A stretch of 49,423 nt of DNA. Source: a virus. Shown here piece by piece: positions 5,852 to 47,744 of this stretch; within the stretch, counting starts at the first letter, position 1, and the number at the start of each line of letters is the position of its first letter. The position numbers and the translations under genes were made by a program. The stretch is from the IMG/VR virus record IMGVR_UViG_3300009104_000031, positions 1 through 49,423 of that record. One strand, 5' to 3'. The notes under the pieces were generated by a model. That model was not told the DNA's origin. It was given only the letters and a program-made list of their open reading frames with translations, and ran no database searches.

Positions 5852-7325
5852 TTAATTCTACCTTATGTATTTCATAATTAAACTCTTCACCATTGTATAT
5901 ATTTATCCTTTCACGAAAATGTTGTAACGTATAATTCTCCTTTTCGTTATATGTTAAATCATCTGCTATATCATATAACGTAGCGGTGGATCGGTTGTCC
6001 TTCAACCGTAATCCTCTACCTATACTTTGTAGATTTCTTATACGAGATTTACTAGGGCTACTAAAAATAATATTGTGTAAATTACGGATATTAATACCAG
6101 TAGAGAACGTCCCATAAGAAGCGATAATAATGGCGTTATCAGACTTTTCTGTAATAGACCTAATACGTTCCCTCTCATCAGCTTCAACTCCTCCATAGAC
6201 ATAAAAAATTTTCTTTCCTTCGGCTTTCTCTTCTATCATTTGCTTAAGTATGGCACCGTGTTTCTCAACATACTGAAACAAGCAAAGAGTGTTTCCATTT
6301 AATTGTGTTGCTAAATTTCGGACAAATTTATTACGTGGTTCATTTGAAACCAAATAATCCATTTCTTCCTGATAGGATTTATCCTTCAAGAAATGTCTAG
6401 CATTAGGTGGGTGTTGTAAGACTAAACAAAATATTTTTAAGTCTGCTAAATGTTTATCCTCTTGTAGTTTAGTTGTAGTGGTAACCTTTTCAACGGCACC
6501 AAAAAGACCTTCTAATACTAATTTATGCGTCTTTGTACCATCTAAAGTACCTGTCATACCAATTCTATATTTACAATCTTCTAGCTTAGTTAGTATCTTT
6601 GTTAATGATACTGCTTTAAATAAGTGTGCTTCGTCACCAACAACCATACCAAATTGTTTAAACCATTTTTTTGGCATATTATAAACAGACTGCCAAGTAG
6701 ATATAACAACTCTTTTATCTGTATCTTTACCCATACCACCATAAATTCTATGTACATTAGCTAATGGATTCCAACCATAATCTTTAAAGTCTTTAAATAA
6801 TTGTTCTACTAGTGATGTGGTTGGTACTATAATTAATACTTTATTGTTAACCTTTTCTCTTATTCTCAATAGATTAAATCTCACCAATAGATATGTAATG
6901 ATTGATTTACCACTTGCTGTTGGAGATAATAATAGGCACCGACTTTTCTTTAATGACCAGACAAAGGCTTCTTTTTGATAGTCTCTTATTTCTAAAGGTA
7001 TGTTTAATGCGTCTATAAAACCATCAATCTTTTTTAAATCTAATTCTGTATCTTTAATCTTTGTGGCATCCACCACTTCCACTTTATTATCTTTACACCA
7101 TTGTAATATATAAGGGTAGAGACCAGCATATATTTGACCATTTGCATATGAAAATAATCTGATTTTTCCGTCCCATACTCGGTTACGGAATTGTGGCATA
7201 AACTTAAATCCTGGTACCTCAAACGTAAAAAATTCTCCAAGCTCTCTTCTAATATCAGCTTCAGCTTCTATTGTAAGATAAACTTCGTTCTTTTTATTAA
7301 TGATAAGGTATCGGACAGGGGTCAT
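5817..7325 (-). CDS. uvsW: UvsW-like ATP-dependent DNA/RNA helicase
   Basis: A superfamily 2 helicase of 502 aa, about the size of T4 UvsW. After an N-terminal recognition domain (about 1-100) comes Walker A in SPTASGKS (134-141), then DEAH (231-234), TGT (258-260) and motif VI in IGRGLRLKDN. T4 UvsW unwinds R-loops and branched DNA, stopping origin-dependent replication late and promoting recombination-dependent replication and fork rescue. The first base of its start codon is the last base of the uvsY stop, and its end overlaps the 157-aa gene. A strong predicted plus-strand promoter at 5325 could produce antisense RNA across it. Confidence 0.94.
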   Translation of the reverse strand: MTPVRYLIINKKNEVYLTIEAEADIRRELGEFFTFEVPGFKFMPQFRNRVWDGKIRLFSYANGQIYAGLYPYILQWCKDNKVEVVDATKIKDTELDLKKIDGFIDALNIPLEIRDYQKEAFVWSLKKSRCLLLSPTASGKSIITYLLVRFNLLRIREKVNNKVLIIVPTTSLVEQLFKDFKDYGWNPLANVHRIYGGMGKDTDKRVVISTWQSVYNMPKKWFKQFGMVVGDEAHLFKAVSLTKILTKLEDCKYRIGMTGTLDGTKTHKLVLEGLFGAVEKVTTTTKLQEDKHLADLKIFCLVLQHPPNARHFLKDKSYQEEMDYLVSNEPRNKFVRNLATQLNGNTLCLFQYVEKHGAILKQMIEEKAEGKKIFYVYGGVEADERERIRSITEKSDNAIIIASYGTFSTGINIRNLHNIIFSSPSKSRIRNLQSIGRGLRLKDNRSTATLYDIADDLTYNEKENYTLQHFRERINIYNGEEFNYEIHKVELNGTGTKTTTSN

Positions 7326-8450: not shown

Positions 8451-8480
8451 AAAAAAAGGGGACCCGAAAGCCCCCTTTTT
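8451..8480 (-). terminator. rho-independent terminator after the major capsid gene
   Basis: On the minus strand GGGGGC-TTTCGG-GTCCCC forms a six-pair hairpin (one G-T pair) followed by seven T. The other side carries five A, so it could work in both directions. It lies 29 bases past the gp23 stop and separates the capsid operon from the tube-like gene. Confidence 0.85.
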
Positions 8481-8509
8481 AATTTTATTATATAAGCCTG
8501 TATAACAGA

Positions 8510-9841
8510 TTACATAAGATTAGCAACTTGTACTTTTCTGTAGTATCTGTTTGCGTTAGCCGAACCTGAACCGTTAATTACAGCTGCGTCACCAGTACCT
8601 GCTTCAGCAAAAGGATTTGCTTGTAAGCCGTATCTAGTTTTAAAGCCGATTTTCGGTTGGAAAGTGTCTTGACCAACAGCTCTAACCATTTGTAATGGTA
8701 CATATGGGCAGTAGAATATACCAGCGTCATATGGTGATGTACCTTTGTATCCTACAACGAAATACTGCTTAGCAGCATTGTTCGCTGAATATGGATCAAT
8801 GTACACTTTATATTTACCATTAAGAACACCTGCAAAAGTATTGCCTGTGTCATCAACAGATAGATTGTTGTTAAGTGCTGGAGCGTAATCTAACACACCT
8901 GCCATTTGAAGTGCCGAAGCAACGTCAGATGAACAGATAATTATATTACCTCTTCCTCTTCTTGTTCTTTGAGCGATTACATTAGCTTCACGTTCAACTT
9001 GGAACATTAAACCTTTGAATCTTTCAACAGACCATCTACCGTTAGAGTCAGTATCTAAATCAAAGATACCTGCAGTTGTAGTATTAACACCTGCTCCTTT
9101 TTCGGAGTTAATGTAAATAGTTCTAACTACTTCTCTATTGATCTCAGCAAGTATTTCACTTGATAAGATGTTAGCTAGTTCTGTTTCAGCGTCTAAACCG
9201 TGGATTGCTTTTAAATCTTGAGCAAGTTCCATAGTATATTCCGCTTTAAGAGCTCTTGACTTGGCAGTCACCGTAGATTTCTCTATTGAGAAAGCCATTT
9301 CAGCAAAAGCATTACCACTTGCGTCTCCCAATGCTTCAGCAGCAGCTGTAGTCATTGCAGTACCAGCAGTATATGTTCCTGGTGAGCTATCATTAAGAAC
9401 GCTTGGATTTGTTCCAGCGTGTGCTGTAGATGAATAACCATCAACAGATGAACCAGCAGCATTTCTACCAGAGAAATCAGTATCAGCTTCATCAAATAAA
9501 GCTTCTGTTCCTGCTTGTGTAGCGTATCTGCTTCTCATTGCAAATATCAAGCCAGTTGGACCTGTCATAGGTTGAACACCAGCAATATCATAAGCAATTA
9601 AATTAGGCATAGCTCTTCTAACCAATGAGATTAGAATTGGGTCCCAATTTGCAATACTAGCGCCAGTAGCGTTAGTAGGTGCAGCTTCTGATAAAAAGGC
9701 GTTGTCTTCCTTTGCAGCTCTTTCCTGGTTTTCTAGGATAGTTGCGGTAACGGCACGTTTGTAAGTATCTTCAATCTTTGGAAGATCTGGATGCTCCAAA
9801 ACAGGCTGCCATTTTTTTTCGTAAGTTTCTGATAAAAACAT
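8510..9841 (-). CDS. 23: major capsid protein gp23
   Basis: The 443-aa protein is shorter than T4 gp23 (521), as in marine T4-like phages. Recognisable pieces are the N-terminal prohead-type region ending before NWDPILISLVRRAMPNLIAYDIAGVQPM, then GPTGLIFAMRSRY, and a C-terminal IGFKTRYG segment. It has an HK97-type capsid fold. The first about 60 residues are probably removed by the gp21 protease during maturation, as in T4. It is preceded by gp22 and gp21 and followed by a strong terminator. No exact TATAAATA box lies in the 24-base gap upstream, so expression likely reads through from the gp22 promoter. GGGAG serves as ribosome site. Confidence 0.97.
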   Translation of the reverse strand: MFLSETYEKKWQPVLEHPDLPKIEDTYKRAVTATILENQERAAKEDNAFLSEAAPTNATGASIANWDPILISLVRRAMPNLIAYDIAGVQPMTGPTGLIFAMRSRYATQAGTEALFDEADTDFSGRNAAGSSVDGYSSTAHAGTNPSVLNDSSPGTYTAGTAMTTAAAEALGDASGNAFAEMAFSIEKSTVTAKSRALKAEYTMELAQDLKAIHGLDAETELANILSSEILAEINREVVRTIYINSEKGAGVNTTTAGIFDLDTDSNGRWSVERFKGLMFQVEREANVIAQRTRRGRGNIIICSSDVASALQMAGVLDYAPALNNNLSVDDTGNTFAGVLNGKYKVYIDPYSANNAAKQYFVVGYKGTSPYDAGIFYCPYVPLQMVRAVGQDTFQPKIGFKTRYGLQANPFAEAGTGDAAVINGSGSANANRYYRKVQVANLM

Positions 9842-12807: not shown

Positions 12808-13842
12808 CTATCTTATTGGCGGAACATACATTACGCCACCGTTCTTCCAAAGATTATTTAAACCTCTTTCTAAAGCAAGTGGTGTTTGTGGTCCCACATT
12901 TCTTTCAAACGATTCTCCATAGTTACCAACTTGTTTAATAATATTGTATCCGAATTTCATACCAACTCCTAACATAGGACCGATATAACCTTCTTCACCC
13001 AAAATTCTTAAAACTTCTTTATTCTTACTATCTAACATACTATCTACATTGTACATTGTGATACCTGCCTCTTCAGCATTTATCATAATGAAATGTGTCC
13101 ATCTTATTATATCTTCCCACTCCTGGTCACCTTGTCTTACAAGTGGACCTAATGGTTCTTTAGATATAATTTCTGGCAATACCATCCATTTACTAGGGTC
13201 TTCGGCACCAGCTCTTGCTGAAGCTAAACCTGAAGCGTCTGTAGTAAACACATCACAATCGCCAGCAAATAGTTTTGCTTTTGCGTCTTTATTACCTTCA
13301 ACATAAATTGGTTTATATTGCATATTATTTTCTGCAAAGTAATCATTTAAGTTTAATTCACTTGTGGTTTCTTTTGTAATACATACAAACGCACCATCTA
13401 ATTCTTTTGCACTCTTAATATCCAATTCGGTTGGTATTAAAAATCCTTGACCGTCATAGTAATTAACACCTGCAAATTCGAACATCAAGTTAACATCACG
13501 ACTAATTGTCCAAGTAGTATTTCTTGCAAGTACATCAATTTCTTTTGACGCTAATGTTGGAAATCTTTGAGCTGCATTTAAACCTACAAACTCAACTTTA
13601 CTAGAGTCTCCAAATACACCAGCTGCAACTGCTTTACAGAAGTCAACATCTAAACCACTCCAATTTCCTGCGTCATCTTGAGCAGAAAATCCAGGTAGAC
13701 CTGCATTAACTCCACAGATTAAATAACCTCTTTCTTGTACGGTTTTTAAGAGACCGACTTCTTGTTCTATTTTAATACTCTTTGTTGTATTACAACCTAC
13801 TAAAAATAAAGCAACGAATAAACTCATTAATATTTTTTTCAT
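12808..13842 (-). CDS. amino-acid ABC transporter substrate-binding lipoprotein (AapJ/YhdW-like)
   Basis: The 344-aa protein begins with a lipoprotein signal peptide, lipobox LVGC with Cys17 as the lipidated residue. The mature part is a bacterial extracellular solute-binding protein family 3 protein. GLPGFSAQDDAGNWSGLDVDF, the LNAAQRFPTL stretch and the RNTTWTISRD stretch are hallmarks of the general L-amino-acid binding protein AapJ. Its partner permeases and ATPase are not in the window, so it would have to work with host AapQMP-type machinery, or do something else. It lies inside the head-morphogenesis operon between gp21 and gp20, which is unusual for an auxiliary metabolic gene. Host origin is likely. 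Confidence 0.88.
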   Translation of the reverse strand: MKKILMSLFVALFLVGCNTTKSIKIEQEVGLLKTVQERGYLICGVNAGLPGFSAQDDAGNWSGLDVDFCKAVAAGVFGDSSKVEFVGLNAAQRFPTLASKEIDVLARNTTWTISRDVNLMFEFAGVNYYDGQGFLIPTELDIKSAKELDGAFVCITKETTSELNLNDYFAENNMQYKPIYVEGNKDAKAKLFAGDCDVFTTDASGLASARAGAEDPSKWMVLPEIISKEPLGPLVRQGDQEWEDIIRWTHFIMINAEEAGITMYNVDSMLDSKNKEVLRILGEEGYIGPMLGVGMKFGYNIIKQVGNYGESFERNVGPQTPLALERGLNNLWKNGGVMYVPPIR

Positions 13843-13846
13843 ATAA

Positions 13847-14149
13847 TTAATCCTGTGTTAACACTTCTGTTTGTTTTTTCTTTTTCTTTTCAGTAAGCGA
13901 CTTCGCTGTACCACCTAATTTTAAACTACCTGATTGGTCAGGCATTTTATTTTTAATACTAATAATGTTACCATCAGCGTCTATTTCTGCCATAGACGGA
14001 CCACAAATAACTCTACGGCCGTCTTTTAATTTCTCTATTGCTCGTTTATCTTTCAAGCAATCCATTAATCCATCATACTTGATAAACTCGCTAGAAGTAT
14101 TGGTCACAACAAACATTGTGATAATGGTAACTAAAGTAGTTGCGTCCAT
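13847..14149 (-). CDS. small hypothetical membrane-associated protein, DCLKxKR family
   Basis: The 100-aa protein has a hydrophobic N-terminus (MDATTLVTIITMFVVTN), possibly a signal or weak anchor, followed by MDCLKDKRAIEKLKDGRRVICGPSMAEI and a Lys-rich tail. The DCLKxKR-I/V-EK element is shared with the 166-aa protein at 12300-12800. The pair flanks the amino-acid binding protein gene, and all three are packed within a few bases of each other. Function unknown. Confidence 0.6.
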   Translation of the reverse strand: MDATTLVTIITMFVVTNTSSEFIKYDGLMDCLKDKRAIEKLKDGRRVICGPSMAEIDADGNIISIKNKMPDQSGSLKLGGTAKSLTEKKKKKQTEVLTQD

Positions 14150-14152
14150 ATC

Positions 14153-14602
14153 TTATTCTCCTGTTTTATATCCGTTCTTGGCTTCTCTAATTTTGTCCTT
14201 TAATTCCTCAATATCGGCTAAAGCCTTATCCATATCTTTTTGCAATCTTTCAATGTTAACTGCATTGTTCATCATATTCTGTAAATCTTTTTGAATTGCT
14301 TCCACTTGGCCACTCAAAAACTCAATTAGCATAAATTGCTCAGAATCCGCTGGCAAGGAACCCATATCCCCTCTTGGCCATTTGATTCTAAATTCGTTGT
14401 TCTTTTCTATATCTACTCCAAGCGCTTCTTCTGCTTGTTCTAAATCTTTTGTAAGTAATGTTGTATTAGTTTCCAATTTATTTAACCGCTCAATTACCCC
14501 GAAATATGCCCACACTCCGACAGCCACAGCCGAAATTATGGCAAGCAGGTTTTTCATTGGCATACTTACTGCCGATTCACTTGATATATCCAATCGTTTC
14601 AT
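14153..14602 (-). CDS. hypothetical membrane-anchored coiled-coil protein
   Basis: The 149-aa protein has one transmembrane segment at about residues 18-36 (NLLAIISAVAVGVWAYFGV), then two helical heptad-rich regions (about 37-65 and 88-142) separated by a WPRGDMGSLP linker. The arrangement suggests an anchored oligomer. It lies three bases from the DCLKxKR protein, in the small-gene cluster between gp21 and gp20. No recognisable family; the role may be in the cell envelope rather than the virion. Confidence 0.6.
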   Translation of the reverse strand: MKRLDISSESAVSMPMKNLLAIISAVAVGVWAYFGVIERLNKLETNTTLLTKDLEQAEEALGVDIEKNNEFRIKWPRGDMGSLPADSEQFMLIEFLSGQVEAIQKDLQNMMNNAVNIERLQKDMDKALADIEELKDKIREAKNGYKTGE

Positions 14603-25762: not shown

Positions 25763-26181
25763 GCTACTCTTTTCCCTTCATTAATTCTTTGGTCGTGAAT
25801 TTCTTTAGTTGCTGGATATCTCCAAGCCCAAATTGCCACTAACGCCATACTACCACCACTCCATAAAATTGCATTAAGATTATGTGTGCTGTGCCATAGA
25901 ACAGCAACCGTACTTGCCATTACTATGACCATTGACCATTTAGCATAATTTGGAAAAACTCTATACTTCATCCAACCAGTTAAGAAAGGACCAAAGTATT
26001 TGTGATTGTATAACCACTTATGCATTTTTTCTGAACTCTTAGCAAAACAATAAGCCGCAAATACTAAAAAAATACTAAATGGAATCCCTGGAGTAACCAC
26101 ACCTATGTACGCCATACCTAAACTCAACATACCAAGAGTGTACCACATCCATTTTGGAAATCTACTCTTTTTTAATTCCAT
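25750..26181 (-). CDS. DUF454 (YbaN-like) inner membrane protein
   Basis: From the ATG at 26181 (143 aa); GGAGG stands 9 bases upstream, so this start is preferred to a longer one at 26220. The family pattern is clear: GVVTPGIPFSIFLVFAAYCFAKSS, then KWLYNHKYFGPFLTGW and an IVMASTVAVLW helix. About four hydrophobic segments. The function of DUF454 is unknown. Its placement next to heme oxygenase in a bilin cassette suggests a role connected to heme, iron or the product, but this is inference. Confidence 0.8.
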   Translation of the reverse strand: MELKKSRFPKWMWYTLGMLSLGMAYIGVVTPGIPFSIFLVFAAYCFAKSSEKMHKWLYNHKYFGPFLTGWMKYRVFPNYAKWSMVIVMASTVAVLWHSTHNLNAILWSGGSMALVAIWAWRYPATKEIHDQRINEGKRVAWLK

Positions 26182-27197
26182 AACATTACCCCTCCTATCA
26201 GGATAACCATTGAACACCAAGTTATTAATGTAGTTAAGTAATATTTTAATGGTGTCTTAAAATAACCTTTACCTATCGCCAAGCATTTGTGCATTGGTGA
26301 TAATATATAACCACAAAAATCAACAGCAAAAAACCAAGGTAAGTAAGCAAGTCCATAGACACTTACTAACAATACGGTTATGGCTGCGAACCGTGAGGAA
26401 CTTCCTAATATGAAAGAACCTATAAAACTCATTAAACTAATTAACCAAAATCCTGTAGGTGATGTTATATCTAATCCTGAATTATATAATGTTTCGTGTA
26501 TGAGAGGAGAATAAGCTGTAGCGTAATTTGCCATTACAATAATACCAGCAATAAAACCTAAAAGTTTCCAATCTATATAACTTAATATTTTCTTATAATC
26601 AAAAGTACCTGTTACCGACATATAATATAATGTTAGTAATCCAAATACCCATAAGAAATGGATACCTGCCATAACACCAGCAATACCTAATACATAAGGC
26701 ACCACATATCTGGTTATTCTGCTTATCTTAATTTCTTTTTTAATTCCGTCTAATTCTATTCCATCTTCTTTTACAAAGAAAATTAAATAACCTAAAATAA
26801 AAGCAACCGAAACTGCAAGTAAAGGCCAAATAATTCCAAACCAAGCACCATAAGTTAAACCAAAAGCTGCCATAGGTAATATGACCGTCTTCTCTAATGG
26901 TGACCAAAAATAATAATGATGTGTACTTAAATAATCTATAACACCTAGTTTATGCCGTTCTTTTCCTCTAGGCGCCATACTATCTAATAGGCCTGCTGTT
27001 AAGGTGACTCGTCCTTTAATAGGTAAACAACCTGTTAAAGCACTTACTGAAGCTATTAATGCTTTTTTGGATTTTAATATTTTATGAAAATATCCATAAA
27101 AGTCTCCAAATAATTTATGTTCTTTTACTATACCAGCAATTATCATTATAAACGCCAATAAGAAAAGATAAACTTGTCCTTGTATAATTAAATTCAT
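26172..27197 (-). CDS. multi-span permease, DUF401-like
   Basis: The 341-aa integral membrane protein has roughly nine or ten hydrophobic segments. Segments SALTGCLPIKGRVTLTAG, then YYFWSPLEKTVILPM and a C-terminal SPMHKCLAIGKGYFKTPL resemble DUF401 proteins (pattern P-x-x-G early, SPMHxCL late), a poorly known transporter-like group. The start overlaps the stop of the oxygenase upstream and the end overlaps DUF454. The substrate is unknown; one might guess an organic acid, or the product of the neighbouring enzymes. Confidence 0.6.
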   Translation of the reverse strand: MNLIIQGQVYLFLLAFIMIIAGIVKEHKLFGDFYGYFHKILKSKKALIASVSALTGCLPIKGRVTLTAGLLDSMAPRGKERHKLGVIDYLSTHHYYFWSPLEKTVILPMAAFGLTYGAWFGIIWPLLAVSVAFILGYLIFFVKEDGIELDGIKKEIKISRITRYVVPYVLGIAGVMAGIHFLWVFGLLTLYYMSVTGTFDYKKILSYIDWKLLGFIAGIIVMANYATAYSPLIHETLYNSGLDITSPTGFWLISLMSFIGSFILGSSSRFAAITVLLVSVYGLAYLPWFFAVDFCGYILSPMHKCLAIGKGYFKTPLKYYLTTLITWCSMVILIGGVMLWN

Positions 27198-43144: not shown

Positions 43145-43172
43145 TTGACTTTTAAAGGAAAATTGATATAAT
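43145..43172 (+). promoter_or_regulatory. sigma70-type (early) promoter for tctC
   Basis: TTGACT (43145-43150), 16-bp spacer and a perfect TATAAT (43167-43172) on the plus strand. The -35 and its flank (TTGACTTTTAA) are the same as at the gp55 promoter. Start near 43179, leader about 45 bases with an AAGGA ribosome site. Confidence 0.65.
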
Positions 43173-43223: not shown

Positions 43224-43988
43224 ATGAAAAAATATATAATTTCCCTAGTGATGTTGTTATGGTCCCATACAGCATTCGCTGGTCAAACAAATATCATAAA
43301 TGCAGGAAGTGACTCTGGAGCATTCCATCAAGTCCTAACTATGATTGGGAATAAAGTGGACCACAAATTTGTACAAGCAGGCAATCCAATAATTGCAAGT
43401 AAACATTTTGAAAAATCAAATGTCTTAACTATGTGGAGTACAGAATGGCCTGGTGACGAATCAATGCCGTCTGTAGTAATGGACAAAAACACAATCGTTG
43501 CTGTTCAAGCATATGAAACAATACTTTGTAGCCGCAAATACAATTCAATAGAAGAAATGTCTGGCCAAACGGTTAAGATAGCAACTTGGGGTGACTCACC
43601 TGTTATTAAAAAATTTCTTGATGGTTTAGGTATTGATTTTGTAATCGTACCTTACGGTGGAAGTGGTGATACCGTTAGAGGTTATCTAGGTAAAGACGCT
43701 GATACTATCTTTACAATTCAAACTAAACAATCTAAAGTGGAGGCAGACGGAAATTGTTTTGCTTTTAGTGCTAATGGTGATTTAGATTTTGCGTTTGTTG
43801 ATGTATTATTAGCTGTTAATGCTGAAAATGGTGCTGTTGAAGAATTTAGAAATATAGTATTAGAATTATCAAATACTGAAGCGTGGCAAACTGCCTTTGA
43901 AGGTACAGCTACATATGTTTTAAATGATGATAATAAAGATTCACTTATTAATAAAGTGAACGCTGCTATAGAATTAAATAGTAATTAA
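43224..43988 (+). CDS. tctC: TctC/Bug-type periplasmic substrate-binding protein
   Basis: The 254-aa protein has a signal peptide (about residues 1-19, ending AFAG) and a mature part with VIVPYGGSGDTVRGYLGKDAD, matching the TctC family VPYxG...LxGxxD motif. It is shorter than usual (about 320). It would bind a carboxylate in the periplasm and pass it to a TctA/TctB membrane complex. A TctA gene lies at 45801-47069 on the other strand; no TctB is seen. It is the only plus-strand gene in the window, has both early and late promoters, and its stop overlaps the ATP-grasp stop in TTAA. Ligand unknown. Confidence 0.82.
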   Translation: MKKYIISLVMLLWSHTAFAGQTNIINAGSDSGAFHQVLTMIGNKVDHKFVQAGNPIIASKHFEKSNVLTMWSTEWPGDESMPSVVMDKNTIVAVQAYETILCSRKYNSIEEMSGQTVKIATWGDSPVIKKFLDGLGIDFVIVPYGGSGDTVRGYLGKDADTIFTIQTKQSKVEADGNCFAFSANGDLDFAFVDVLLAVNAENGAVEEFRNIVLELSNTEAWQTAFEGTATYVLNDDNKDSLINKVNAAIELNSN

Positions 43989-45157
43989 AAATATTCAATA
44001 CATTCCTGAAATTGTTTGTTAACGGTCTGATATGTTTTTTTCATATCAGATTCGTTAGCACCAGTTATAATAAAAGCTGTTCTAGCTTTTGCTGATACTA
44101 TATGAACATAATCTGGAATTTCCATTTCAGGTTTTAACTTATGATTGGTTGCCACCAAATATTCTTTTAAATGAGATAAATCTTTTATATTTTTTATTTT
44201 GCCTGGTTTTAAATCAGACATAACCCAATATATTTGTTTATTATAAGATATAGGTTTACTTTCTAAAATTTTTGAAACTATTGTATTGCCGTGTACATCA
44301 TCCATTTGTTGTAAACCTTGACCAATTCTTGGATTGCAATCTATCATTTTCATATCATTATCCCATTTATAAAAATCAGGTCCAGAAAAAAACATATTTT
44401 TTAAATGTAAAGTAGTTACCAATCTTTCAAAAAAATTATTAGATTTATTTCGTACATCTTCTGGTACATCTTTCTCATTAATACTCATCCATTCAATTGG
44501 TTTAGTTTCATATCTATATTTGTCAATTCTACCATACGCAATTTTACCTCTAAACCATAATACATTTCTTAAACTACCTTTTTCATTTACATAATAATAT
44601 GGACCCCAAATGTAAGCTTCAGCTGGAAGTTGATCTTGAACCATATAATGATTAATACGATTATTAAATTTTGAATCTTTCCAACCTTTTACATTATTAG
44701 TAAAAAATTCAGTAGTACCAATTGAAAGTAAAAACTCTTTCTTATTTTTAAAAGAAACATAATTTAAGCCTTCAGCTTTTCCACCTGAACCAATAATAGG
44801 TTTTATTATAAAAGGACTTTCTTTATATCTATCTAAATCTCCTGGATTTGTAGGTATGATACTATAGGGTATTAAGTCTTGAAGACCTATAACACTACAA
44901 AAATCATCCATCTTTTTTTTATCAGATAAAACTTCAGCTGCTCTTTCTGATAGATTATTTAATCCCCATTTTTTCTCTAACTTAGCTTGTATTGGTAATA
45001 AACTTTCTGCAACCGTAAAAATTCTATCATAAGGTCCTTCAATTTTATCAAAGTCTTTGGTAACTACATCTACTTCCTGATTAATATTTTTCAATGCCCT
45101 TTCAAGGCATTCATATTTGTTCCAACCTCTTTTATATCCTATAATTAAATTACGCAT
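43985..45157 (-). CDS. ATP-grasp ligase-like enzyme
   Basis: The 390-aa protein has the ATP-grasp layout: LSDKKKMDDF helix, FIIKPIIGSGGKAEG nucleotide loop (116-130), MVQDQLPAE strand and a metal-binding DCNPRIGQG segment near residues 272-280. These enzymes join a carboxylate to an amine or similar nucleophile with ATP. Its N-terminus overlaps the FkbM gene by 13 bases. The 3' end is convergent with tctC: the two stop codons share bases. Natural product- or amino-acid-ligase-like; substrate unknown. Confidence 0.8.
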   Translation of the reverse strand: MRNLIIGYKRGWNKYECLERALKNINQEVDVVTKDFDKIEGPYDRIFTVAESLLPIQAKLEKKWGLNNLSERAAEVLSDKKKMDDFCSVIGLQDLIPYSIIPTNPGDLDRYKESPFIIKPIIGSGGKAEGLNYVSFKNKKEFLLSIGTTEFFTNNVKGWKDSKFNNRINHYMVQDQLPAEAYIWGPYYYVNEKGSLRNVLWFRGKIAYGRIDKYRYETKPIEWMSINEKDVPEDVRNKSNNFFERLVTTLHLKNMFFSGPDFYKWDNDMKMIDCNPRIGQGLQQMDDVHGNTIVSKILESKPISYNKQIYWVMSDLKPGKIKNIKDLSHLKEYLVATNHKLKPEMEIPDYVHIVSAKARTAFIITGANESDMKKTYQTVNKQFQECIEYF

Positions 45158-45804
45158 TTAAATAGATAATGGTCATTACCAAAATCCTCCTTTTGTCTAT
45201 AACCTAATTCAGTTAAAAAAATATAAGCATCCTTATTTGATATTTCTATATAAATTGATGGCATATATTTTCTTATTGTATTCTCAGCACCTGTTAATGC
45301 TTCTAATTCGTGACCTTCTACATCCATTTTAATAAAATCCACATTATGAAAATTATAACTATCTATTGTCTTGGTCTCAACAATAACATCTTCTGGTTTT
45401 TGTAAAATCTTTTCTTTTGTAAGTCTTTTAAATTCATAATCCATATCTTCAGCATTATAATGTAAAGTGGACATACCTGTAAAATAATTTATATACTTCA
45501 TAGTTGCTGTACCTATCTTATCAGAAATTGCCACCTTATTTAAAACAACATTATCATTTTTTACATTTCTTATCCAACATTCAATATGTTGAGGTATTGG
45601 TTCAAATGATACCACGTCTGAAAATTCGGATGCAAGTCTTTTAGACCAAATGCCTACGTGAGCACCAATATCTAACGCTGTATTTCTTTTATAAATTTGT
45701 TTCATTGTGGATAAAAAAGGATTTAATTCATAACCCTTACCCCAACGCCAACCACATTGGTCTTCTTCTGGTATAAAACAATGTTTATCGTCTGTTAATT
45801 TCAT
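45145..45804 (-). CDS. FkbM-family SAM methyltransferase
   Basis: The 219-aa protein has the glycine loop TALDIGAHVGIWSKRLA (42-58), VVSFEPIPQHIECWIRNV and a KMDVEGHELEAL motif near residues 158-170 that marks FkbM methyltransferases. It transfers a methyl group, typically to an oxygen on a sugar or similar small molecule. Start overlaps the TctA stop and the end overlaps the ATP-grasp gene. Likely part of a small-molecule or glycan modification set with the adjacent enzymes. Confidence 0.85.
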   Translation of the reverse strand: MKLTDDKHCFIPEEDQCGWRWGKGYELNPFLSTMKQIYKRNTALDIGAHVGIWSKRLASEFSDVVSFEPIPQHIECWIRNVKNDNVVLNKVAISDKIGTATMKYINYFTGMSTLHYNAEDMDYEFKRLTKEKILQKPEDVIVETKTIDSYNFHNVDFIKMDVEGHELEALTGAENTIRKYMPSIYIEISNKDAYIFLTELGYRQKEDFGNDHYLFKCVI

Positions 45805-47069
45805 CCGTATATTACCATTACTCTCATTAAGTTATCCCAAAACAAATCTGTTAAGAAAAATCCATATAGTATTGGAAAAGTATCTACTCTCTTTAAATAA
45901 TAACCTATTATACTTAATACAATTAATGTTATTAATAACCACTCACTTACTGGATATATGTAAATACTCATTATAGAAATGAATAATACAATACCATACA
46001 CCAATGTATTTTTATATTTCTTATATAGATGTGCTAATTGACCTAATAAATTAAAACAACTCCAAGATAATATCAAACAAATTATTAAAACAATTGGTAT
46101 GTAATAAAGTATATTAGTAAAATGGGACATTGTTTCCACACCAAAAGTGAAACCTTTGGTTACAATTAGATAATAAACTAATACCTCACTACCCACAATA
46201 GGTATGCCAAGTACAATTAAAGGTAATAAGGAACTTAACGCACCACTATTATTTGCTGATTCGGCAGCCGCTATTTTCTTAATATCAGTTTTAACCAAGT
46301 TAGCACTTAAATAACTCCCTAAAATATTGGTTACTCCTGGAATAAGACCACACCAAAATCCAACAAAACTTCCTACACTTGTTGCTGGTAATGTACTAGG
46401 CGCATAACCAAATTTCTTAATCTCCTTTTGTCTACCAATTTTAACATCTTTAAATTTCATTAATTCAGGCACAATATACAACCCTATCATTACAGCACTA
46501 AAAGGAATACCTAAAGTTAAGTAATCAATACCAAATGTTCCCCAAGTTTCGTATGATGTGTTATCAAATCCTATCTTCGCTAATATTCCACCAAATATAA
46601 AAAGGGGTATTGTCTTCCATATCTTTTGTTTTGATAGAAGAGTTAATAATACAATTGCTACGCATATAATACCAAGTTGTAAGGTACTATTATAGAATTG
46701 AAATATACTATAGATACTTGGAAGAAATAATAAGAATAGACCTATTGCAAAGATAGACCCTATTGTACTTGAAATAGCGTTGCTGCTTACAGCAAGATGT
46801 CCTTTTCCTTTTAAGAATAAGTTATGTCCGTGCCTAGCAGTAGATACTGCTGAAGCGTCACCAGGTATTCCATATAAAATACCTGTTACCGAATTAGTAT
46901 AATTCGTTGTAATAAGAAGTGAAATATAAAAGAGTAATATATTAAAAGGGTCTAAAGCAAATAGTAAAGGATATAATGTTGCAATTGCCAAAAATGGTCC
47001 TGCACCAGGTATAACTCCAAAAAGAACTCCTGATAATATTCCAAATAAACACCATAACAAAGAAAGCAT
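45801..47069 (-). CDS. tctA: TctA-type large permease of a tripartite tricarboxylate transporter
   Basis: The 422-aa membrane protein is shorter than usual (about 500). GVIPGAGPFLAIATLYPLLF near the N-terminus and the second glycine motif GLIPGVTNILGSYLSANLVK are TctA signatures, as is the NSVTGILYGIPGDASAV stretch. About ten to twelve hydrophobic segments. It would move a carboxylate together with a binding protein such as the TctC-like protein at 43224-43988. No TctB partner gene is present. The start overlaps the stop of the upstream oxygenase and the end overlaps FkbM. Confidence 0.85.
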   Translation of the reverse strand: MLSLLWCLFGILSGVLFGVIPGAGPFLAIATLYPLLFALDPFNILLFYISLLITTNYTNSVTGILYGIPGDASAVSTARHGHNLFLKGKGHLAVSSNAISSTIGSIFAIGLFLLFLPSIYSIFQFYNSTLQLGIICVAIVLLTLLSKQKIWKTIPLFIFGGILAKIGFDNTSYETWGTFGIDYLTLGIPFSAVMIGLYIVPELMKFKDVKIGRQKEIKKFGYAPSTLPATSVGSFVGFWCGLIPGVTNILGSYLSANLVKTDIKKIAAAESANNSGALSSLLPLIVLGIPIVGSEVLVYYLIVTKGFTFGVETMSHFTNILYYIPIVLIICLILSWSCFNLLGQLAHLYKKYKNTLVYGIVLFISIMSIYIYPVSEWLLITLIVLSIIGYYLKRVDTFPILYGFFLTDLFWDNLMRVMVIYG

Positions 47070-47707
47070 TATTTTACTTTCCCATAATCCAACATATGTA
47101 AAAATAAATCTTTATCAAACTTTAAACAAATAACTAATAACATTATTCCATCTTTCATTGAGAAAACACTATGTCTTTTATTACCATTAAAATACCAAAG
47201 AGAACCACTATTACCTTTGATAAGTTTATCATCATATATCCATTTAAAGTGATATTCATTTGCATTGACAAATCCTACCAATCTAATTTCTTCATATTCA
47301 AAGTTATGTTTATTAACATCAAAATGATCTGGAAAGAAACTACCTCTATCCATACGTAGAAAATGGCACCGACCTAACCATCTAGCCCAAGGTTCTAAAA
47401 TTTTTTGTAATTCTTTGCTTTCTTTATAGACAGGAGTTGGAACAATTATATCGTGGTTATGTATTTCTTGTCCAGTTTGGATTTCCCAATCTCTTAAACT
47501 TGTTAAATCAGGAACACCGTGGAGTCCACCATCAATACTGGTTACACTTAAACCCCAACGATTATTAGGTTTTTTTGGATTATATCTTTTCCAATCACCA
47601 TCAAATGGTTTAATTTCTTCTAATAGTTTCTTTGAATTGAAACCTGGAAATTCTATCCAATCGGACATTGTATATAATCTGGCTAGCGCCTTTTCATCAT
47701 TATTCAT
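47069..47707 (-). CDS. 2OG-Fe(II) oxygenase, aspartyl/asparaginyl hydroxylase-like
   Basis: The 212-aa protein carries DRGSFFPDHFD with H128-x-D130 as proximal iron ligands, H179 in KRHSVFSM as distal ligand, and an LLVICLKFD end. The pattern HFxRMDxGSFFPDHxD is typical of aspartyl-beta-hydroxylase-like phage oxygenases. A sigma70-type promoter lies in the 16-base gap upstream and starts about three bases from the ATG. It leads the TctA-FkbM-ATP-grasp unit. Substrate unknown. Confidence 0.75.
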   Translation of the reverse strand: MNNDEKALARLYTMSDWIEFPGFNSKKLLEEIKPFDGDWKRYNPKKPNNRWGLSVTSIDGGLHGVPDLTSLRDWEIQTGQEIHNHDIIVPTPVYKESKELQKILEPWARWLGRCHFLRMDRGSFFPDHFDVNKHNFEYEEIRLVGFVNANEYHFKWIYDDKLIKGNSGSLWYFNGNKRHSVFSMKDGIMLLVICLKFDKDLFLHMLDYGKVK

Positions 47708-47716
47708 AACTATCCT

Positions 47717-47744
47717 ATTATAACTAAATTCTAGTGAAAGTCAA
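47717..47744 (-). promoter_or_regulatory. sigma70-type promoter for the oxygenase-tctA-FkbM-ATP-grasp unit
   Basis: TTGACT (47739-47744), 16-bp spacer and TATAAT (47717-47722) on the minus strand. The -10 is nine bases before the ATG, so the leader is only about three bases; AGGA lies in the same space. It overlaps the stop codon of the 98-aa gene. Confidence 0.65.

Follow-up and report, generated by a model that had tools for sequence, protein, structure and literature searches.

We analyzed a pair of transport genes in virus record IMGVR_UViG_3300009104_000031, a 49.4-kb fragment (hereafter the window) whose head and tail genes (portal, major capsid, scaffold, sheath and terminase) are of the T4 type. 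The genes encode a TctA permease and a TctC-type solute-binding protein of the tripartite tricarboxylate transporters (TTT). Together with two linked genes, for an ATP-grasp-like ligase and an Asp/Asn beta-hydroxylase-like 2-oxoglutarate/Fe(II) oxygenase, they form a cassette of intact genes that evolve under purifying selection. TctB, the remaining subunit of the known systems, is not recognizable in it. We consider it fairly probable that the cassette specifies an importer that works without a phage TctB, most likely as a reduced two-part form, and that feeds a carboxylate to the neighboring enzymes.

The TctA permease is encoded on the minus strand (45801-47069) and has a complete core of 422 amino acids. 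The protein matches PF01970 with an E-value of 6.5e-65 and 219.8 bits (curated Pfam cut-off 28.9) over positions 1-415 of the 423 in the profile. Profile-profile comparison (hhalign) of phage and cellular TctA gave a probability of 100% over residues 1-422, and the 28 relatives aligned with the window copy are 66-92% identical. Judged from these matches, the window TctA is an intact and unambiguous member of the PF01970 family in which the whole permease core is present. The duplicated motif G-x3-G-x3-G-x2-P-G-x-G has been described for transmembrane segments 1 and 7 of TctA (PMC5812351). Its G-x3-G-x3-G-x2-P-G part is kept twice in the phage proteins; G10/G14/G18/P21/G22 and G233/G237/G241/P244/G245 are invariant in 29 aligned phage TctA, and the final Gly of the second copy is replaced by Thr. 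Cellular TctA from the sampled genomes nearly always has 487-526 amino acids; compared with the cellular core, the phage protein is short of about 17 residues at the N-terminus, about 42 at the C-terminus and about 20 within loops. A larger relative (G002) has a single in-frame TGA within TctA; broken copies or sequence errors therefore do occur occasionally.

The binding protein is encoded on the plus strand (43224-43988). It has 254 amino acids, and its N-terminus reads as a typical signal peptide (MKKYIISLVMLLWSHTAFAG). Single-sequence searches against Pfam, PHROG, NCBIfam and PDB sequences did not name this gene as TctC, the phage family having diverged too far for such models, and for this reason we used fold and profile comparisons. 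The predicted model, made with an alignment of 25 viral sequences, has a mean pLDDT (predicted local distance difference test) of 76, with a weak second lobe. In a structure search with this model the top 11 solved structures were all TctC/Bug proteins, with Z scores of 15.1-11.9 over 225-232 residues: TphC (15.1), TBP (15.0), Polaromonas TctC (14.4) and Bug27 (14.2), followed by MatC, BugD and further entries, the last of them at 11.9. The first structure from a different family was SsuA (Z 11.6). Foldseek matched the model to Bug27 at 5.4e-9. A hidden Markov model (HMM) of cellular TctC matches the window gene at 4e-4, and hhalign of the phage against the cellular family gave an E-value of 4.6e-7, albeit with a modest probability of 87%; the VPYxGxG...LGxxxDxxF block is in register. 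The members of the 25-sequence viral family are 55-80% identical. The window protein is again shorter than its cellular counterparts, which have about 300-330 amino acids. We assign the plus-strand gene to the TctC/Bug family, an assignment of moderate strength at the sequence level. The first-pass annotation, made from the letters of the window alone, had described a TctC-like gene on the plus strand and a TctA-like gene on the minus strand, both coding for unusually short proteins, with an FkbM and an ATP-grasp gene between them. All four open reading frames (ORFs) are present, and the PF01970, PF05050 and TctC fold and profile matches agree with their labels; that of the ATP-grasp gene is of moderate strength. 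The shortness of both transport proteins is also borne out.

Pattern-based scans of viral contigs recovered at least 29 TctA and at least 61 TctC loci. Linkage was counted on those TctC loci that have at least 3.6 kb of flank on each side (n = 22). TctA and the ATP-grasp-like gene lie beside TctC in all 22, and the orthologous oxygenase in 20. The remaining two loci, L059 and L060, are close relatives; the one examined, from a 177-kb phage, holds a non-orthologous PF05118 oxygenase in the same slot (4.3e-5, passing the cut-off). Oxygenase, TctA and ATP-grasp-like gene follow one another, the last of them facing a convergent TctC, and the minus-strand genes of the window overlap by 1 to 13 nucleotides, like a translationally coupled operon. 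Internal stops were absent across about 22 lineages. The median ratio of nonsynonymous to synonymous changes (dN/dS) is 0.19 for TctA, 0.27 for TctC, 0.46 for the ATP-grasp-like gene and 0.17 for the oxygenase; these medians come only from pairs with a synonymous difference (pS) below 0.6, as synonymous sites are partly saturated. The pairwise distances of the four genes correlate with each other (rho 0.75-0.88).

Because the window is only a fragment, the absence of TctB from it means little by itself, and larger relatives were checked. None of 15 viral records, the 177-, 158- and 235-kb ones among them, matched the Pfam TctB profile, and all 15 have TctA. An HMM of cellular, mostly SAR11, TctB matched nothing among the ORFs of at least 80 amino acids from the window and the two records of 177 and 158 kb (best E-value 0.39). 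Small multi-helix ORFs of the two large records were considered as TctB and rejected; they are antisense to longer genes, or belong to a MotA/ExbB or a cation-efflux protein. As a positive control, the same Pfam search detects TctB beside TctA in genomes of the SAR11 order, with E-values down to 1e-17. Among 147 such genomes, located with a 16S probe for SAR11, 55 have TctA and 54 have TctB, which adjoins TctA; 92 have no TctA. By these searches the phage form differs from that of its probable host in TctB, exactly the subunit that the first-pass annotation had noticed as missing. No relative with a TctB beside the pair was found and the window TctA is not broken; both readings proposed in that annotation stand. 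As a separate observation, the SAR11-order genomes G374, G388, G422, G445, G307, G332 and G398 have apparent TctA-TctB fusion ORFs of about 650-668 amino acids, with a weak TctB match in the TctA frame.

Next we consider where the phage genes come from. A phylogeny with host TTT genes had been suggested beforehand. In a tree of 85 sequences, phage TctA forms one clade (support 100/100) on a very long branch, apart from the sampled proteobacterial and SAR11 TctA, and the best identity to any cellular TctA that we saw is about 28%. The cellular sampling covered Alphaproteobacteria and other Proteobacteria, and this scope as well as composition bias limit conclusions on the exact origin. Within this sampling, phage TctA has no close cellular relative and is therefore not a recent host copy; recent capture from a host was rejected on the tree and the low identity. 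The comparison indicates that phage TctA is a deep viral clade, a point that the first-pass annotation had missed. A scan of a genome collection for a cellular parent returned just two loci (L100 and L101), both from the metagenome-assembled genome Rhodobacteraceae bacterium Water_Bin34. The fact that they carry the complete cassette suggests that they are probably phage contigs binned into this assembly.

By capsid and terminase, the cultured phages nearest to the window are Pelagibacter phage Mosig EXVC030M (86% and 77%), Methylophilales phage Melnitz and Pelagibacter phage HTVC008M. Since the nearest cultured relatives infect SAR11, the hosts of the cassette-bearing phages are probably SAR11-type bacteria. 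A scan of a phage collection found no TctC, and the only TctA matches, 23-27% identical, came from enteric and faecal records; Mosig, HTVC008M and Melnitz, which have neither TctA nor TctC in this collection, were rejected as carriers of the cassette. The genes downstream of the window TctC match Mosig_00071 to 00066 in the same order. At this point, after the same tail-fibre genes, Mosig has a different biosynthetic island (Mosig_00072 to 00093), which starts with an Asp_Arg_Hydrox gene and contains others of this kind, but neither TctA nor TctC. This swap at the same position places the window cassette in a hypervariable island by the tail-fibre genes. Other phages carry the cassette in other genomic settings. 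The capsids of G004/G005 are only 38% identical to that of the window, whereas the oxygenase is 75%, FkbM 78%, TctA 67% and TctC 61% identical. The simplest reading of cassettes so much more alike than capsids is that the cassette moved as a unit among distant T4-like phages, although rate differences could contribute.

The opposite orientation of the two transport genes, which the first-pass annotation had reported for the window, is found in 40 of 45 loci; the five collinear loci (L064-L068) form one lineage. That annotation had noted neither this lineage nor the promoter arrangement. A computed sigma-70 type promoter precedes the window TctC (43145-43172, plus strand), with TTGACT, a spacer of 16 nucleotides, TATAAT and a TG before the -10 element, and scores 11 of 12. 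Most relatives have the same type of promoter, located around -60 to -80 and frequently of the form TTGACA-17-TATATT or TATAAT, and the mean best score upstream of TctC is 10.1 of 12 versus 8.6 in shuffled sequences. Upstream of the oxygenase there is no excess across relatives (8.35 versus 8.36 in shuffles). In the window itself an 11-of-12 sigma-70-like sequence, TTGACT-16-TATAAT (47717-47744, minus strand), occurs just before the oxygenase start; it is not common to the relatives. The TctC promoter is absent from L064, the representative of the collinear lineage. Four opposite-strand lineages (L052, L071, L073 and L083) have no clear TctC promoter either, and the rule is therefore not universal. 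The T4-type late promoter motif was no more frequent in the AT-rich window than in shuffled sequences. The sigma-70 promoter that TctC has to itself in most lineages largely accounts for the opposite strands; the layout looks like a regulatory arrangement with a predicted promoter for TctC.

In the importer that we favor, TctC would be exported to the periplasm and bind a small carboxylate there. The permease TctA would sit in the inner membrane, receive the ligand from TctC and move it into the infected host cell, with an ion gradient as the driving force, and a phage TctB would play no part. Inside, the ATP-grasp-like ligase and the oxygenase might use the carboxylate as a substrate for ligation and hydroxylation, as fuel or as a co-substrate. 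Its own host-type promoter may allow TctC to be expressed early and at higher levels than the permease. We infer transport, its direction, energy source, substrate and metabolic use, and also the host; the transport steps are modeled on established knowledge of the family. In its boldest form, this explanation holds that the pair is a true two-component, binding-protein-dependent secondary importer that has never used TctB, that evolved in and was exchanged among T4-like marine phages, and that is dedicated to one carboxylate, which the linked ligase and hydroxylase turn into a phage-specific product. This extended version is possible, but on balance we regard it as doubtful.

Several points weigh against a reduced two-part importer. 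The assignments of the ATP-grasp-like and oxygenase genes depend on weak matches and motifs. A structural model of TctA alone, which had been proposed as a check, was made with AlphaFold; it is weak (pLDDT 67) and gave no significant Foldseek match. The large viral records are linear and come without a completeness estimate. Sequence conservation of TctB is low, and a published survey had no success when it searched by similarity to TctB (PMC5812351); the phages may therefore have a TctB that has diverged strongly, or a substitute without homology to it. The small subunit was found to be essential in TRAP transporters (PMC5812351), which keeps a borrowed or hidden helper in play. On the other hand there is precedent for TctA without TctB, as the stand-alone archaeal TctA has been proposed to function alone (PMC5898192; also PMC5812351).

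The first-pass annotation had offered two alternatives, a reduced two-component form or a phage that borrows TctB from its host. These are still the right alternatives, but the ATP-grasp-like gene and the oxygenase had been missed as members of the cassette. Borrowing, in which host TctB would complete a tripartite transporter with phage TctA and TctC, seems unlikely to us. The nearest cultured relatives do infect SAR11, and TctB adjoins TctA in the SAR11-order genomes with TTT systems; however, these are 54 of 147, so that borrowing would be feasible in just part of the probable host group, and about 63% of the sampled genomes have neither subunit. The identity of at most about 28% to cellular TctA and the very long branch make the fit of phage TctA to a host TctB doubtful, and carriers with such different capsids probably do not all live on TctB-bearing hosts. 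It is improbable that the transporter is tripartite after all, with a strongly diverged or non-homologous small phage membrane protein, encoded outside the cassette, in place of TctB. The poor conservation of TctB and a possible incompleteness of the large records would leave room for such a protein, but no ORF of at least 80 amino acids in the 177- and 158-kb records resembles the four-helix TctB and no small membrane gene is seen in the mapped cassettes. Finally, the parts may have been repurposed for something other than nutrient import; they might block superinfection at the membrane, for example, or TctC might serve as a decoy or scavenger. The position of the window copy beside tail-fibre genes in a hypervariable island would suit such a role, as would the invariant residues that phage TctC has of its own, such as WSxEW. 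Against it stand the full core of TctA with both glycine/proline repeats under strong constraint, the presence of TctC with TctA in all assessable loci, and the co-conservation of the two enzymes; we give repurposing little probability.

The phage pair resembles TctCBA of Salmonella and BctCBA of Bordetella (TC 2.A.80) in that a TctA family permease and a TctC/Bug protein with a signal peptide are both present and intact. It differs from them in the absence of TctB and in that TctA is about 80 and TctC about 50 amino acids shorter. Unlike in the tctCBA operon, the two phage genes are usually in opposite orientation, with a promoter of its own for TctC, and are linked to ATP-grasp-like and oxygenase genes. 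The TTT operons of the SAR11 order use the same permease and binding-protein families; those that we read have the order tctC-tctB-tctA and a TctA of 488-495 amino acids, from which phage TctA is separated as its own clade. The stand-alone archaeal TctA (arCOG04469) likewise occurs without TctB in most archaea (PMC5898192), but it also lacks TctC, whereas the phages keep a TctC-type protein. In viruses, tctA has been reported as a domain hit on viral contigs recovered from single SUP05 cells; these SUP05 viruses also have a 2-oxoglutarate-Fe(II) oxygenase gene (PMC4164917). Tricarboxylate-transport genes receive a passing mention for an island with norB/nirK in a marine myovirus (PMC8115048). 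The passages that we consulted in these two reports place TctA or tricarboxylate transport on marine viral contigs and do not describe TctC, an absent TctB or a four-gene cassette. Bug/TTT proteins annotated in uncultured Caudovirales (BFVD) have the same TctC/Bug fold, but they have about 280-320 amino acids and are 11-16% identical. In the open-licence papers that we searched, a TctB-less TctA-TctC cassette with conserved partners was not found. TctA or tricarboxylate-transport genes on marine viral contigs and Bug/TTT proteins in phages were already known, and the TctB-less cassette of TctA and TctC with linked enzymes appears to be new. In this lineage of marine phages, the component for capture and the one for membrane passage of a probably high-affinity importer have both been kept, together with two linked enzymes and a promoter arrangement of their own. 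The role of TctB would become testable with such a natural TctA, which would depend on a binding protein and lack TctB, and the cassette suggests that the import of a specific carboxylate may pay during the infection of cells that are probably of the SAR11 type.

The ATP-grasp-like gene (43985-45157, minus strand, 390 amino acids) is convergent with TctC, their ends overlapping by 4 nucleotides. Its PF02655 match (0.068) does not reach the cut-off, and a further domain search returned no match. Invariant in the family are K119, G123-S124-G125, Q174, D261 and D273-x-N275-x-R277, which we take to resemble ATP-grasp motifs. The gene probably encodes an ATP-grasp-like ligase, with moderate confidence. 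The oxygenase gene (47069-47707, minus strand, 212 amino acids) lies directly upstream of TctA with an overlap of 1 nucleotide. Its product is 33% identical to Mosig_00081, which is annotated Asp_Arg_Hydrox; 4 of 22 members match PF05118, albeit weakly (best E-value 0.012), and H128-x-D130 and H179 are invariant in the family, as in an HxD...H metal triad. An Asp/Asn-hydroxylase-like oxygenase is the likely product, again with moderate confidence. The FkbM-type methyltransferase (45145-45804, minus strand; PF05050, 3e-20) is an optional member, present just in the window, L002 and L064-L068; elsewhere the slot holds other genes or nothing.

The best row of the weak TctA model in the structure search was the plant Fe-phytosiderophore transporter YS1 of the OPT family, with a Z of 10.5 over 260 residues. 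This value is within the range expected for helical models, and the rows for TRAP, INDY and ArsB, at just about 4-7, exclude nothing. As the YS1 row stands above the TRAP and INDY rows, OPT and TctA may share one fold. Iron-citrate or a siderophore as the substrate was raised by the OPT row and the hydroxylase, and was abandoned as unsupported.

Further genes were seen in the window and next to the cassette in other phages. A window gene away from the cassette (26172-27197, minus strand; 341 amino acids, about six predicted helices, no Pfam match) may encode a membrane protein or transporter. The cassette of L070 is accompanied by a heme oxygenase gene (8458-9000; PF01126, 3e-17) and a gene whose multi-helix membrane product matches no Pfam family (6207-7172). 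In L064 a neighbor is an SbmA/BacA-like transporter (13304-14338; PF05992, 5e-118). The island by the cassette of the 177-kb phage (L012, 1249-9519) resembles that of Mosig and contains genes that, mostly by reading of their sequences, appear to encode an epimerase, glycosyltransferases and radical-SAM enzymes.

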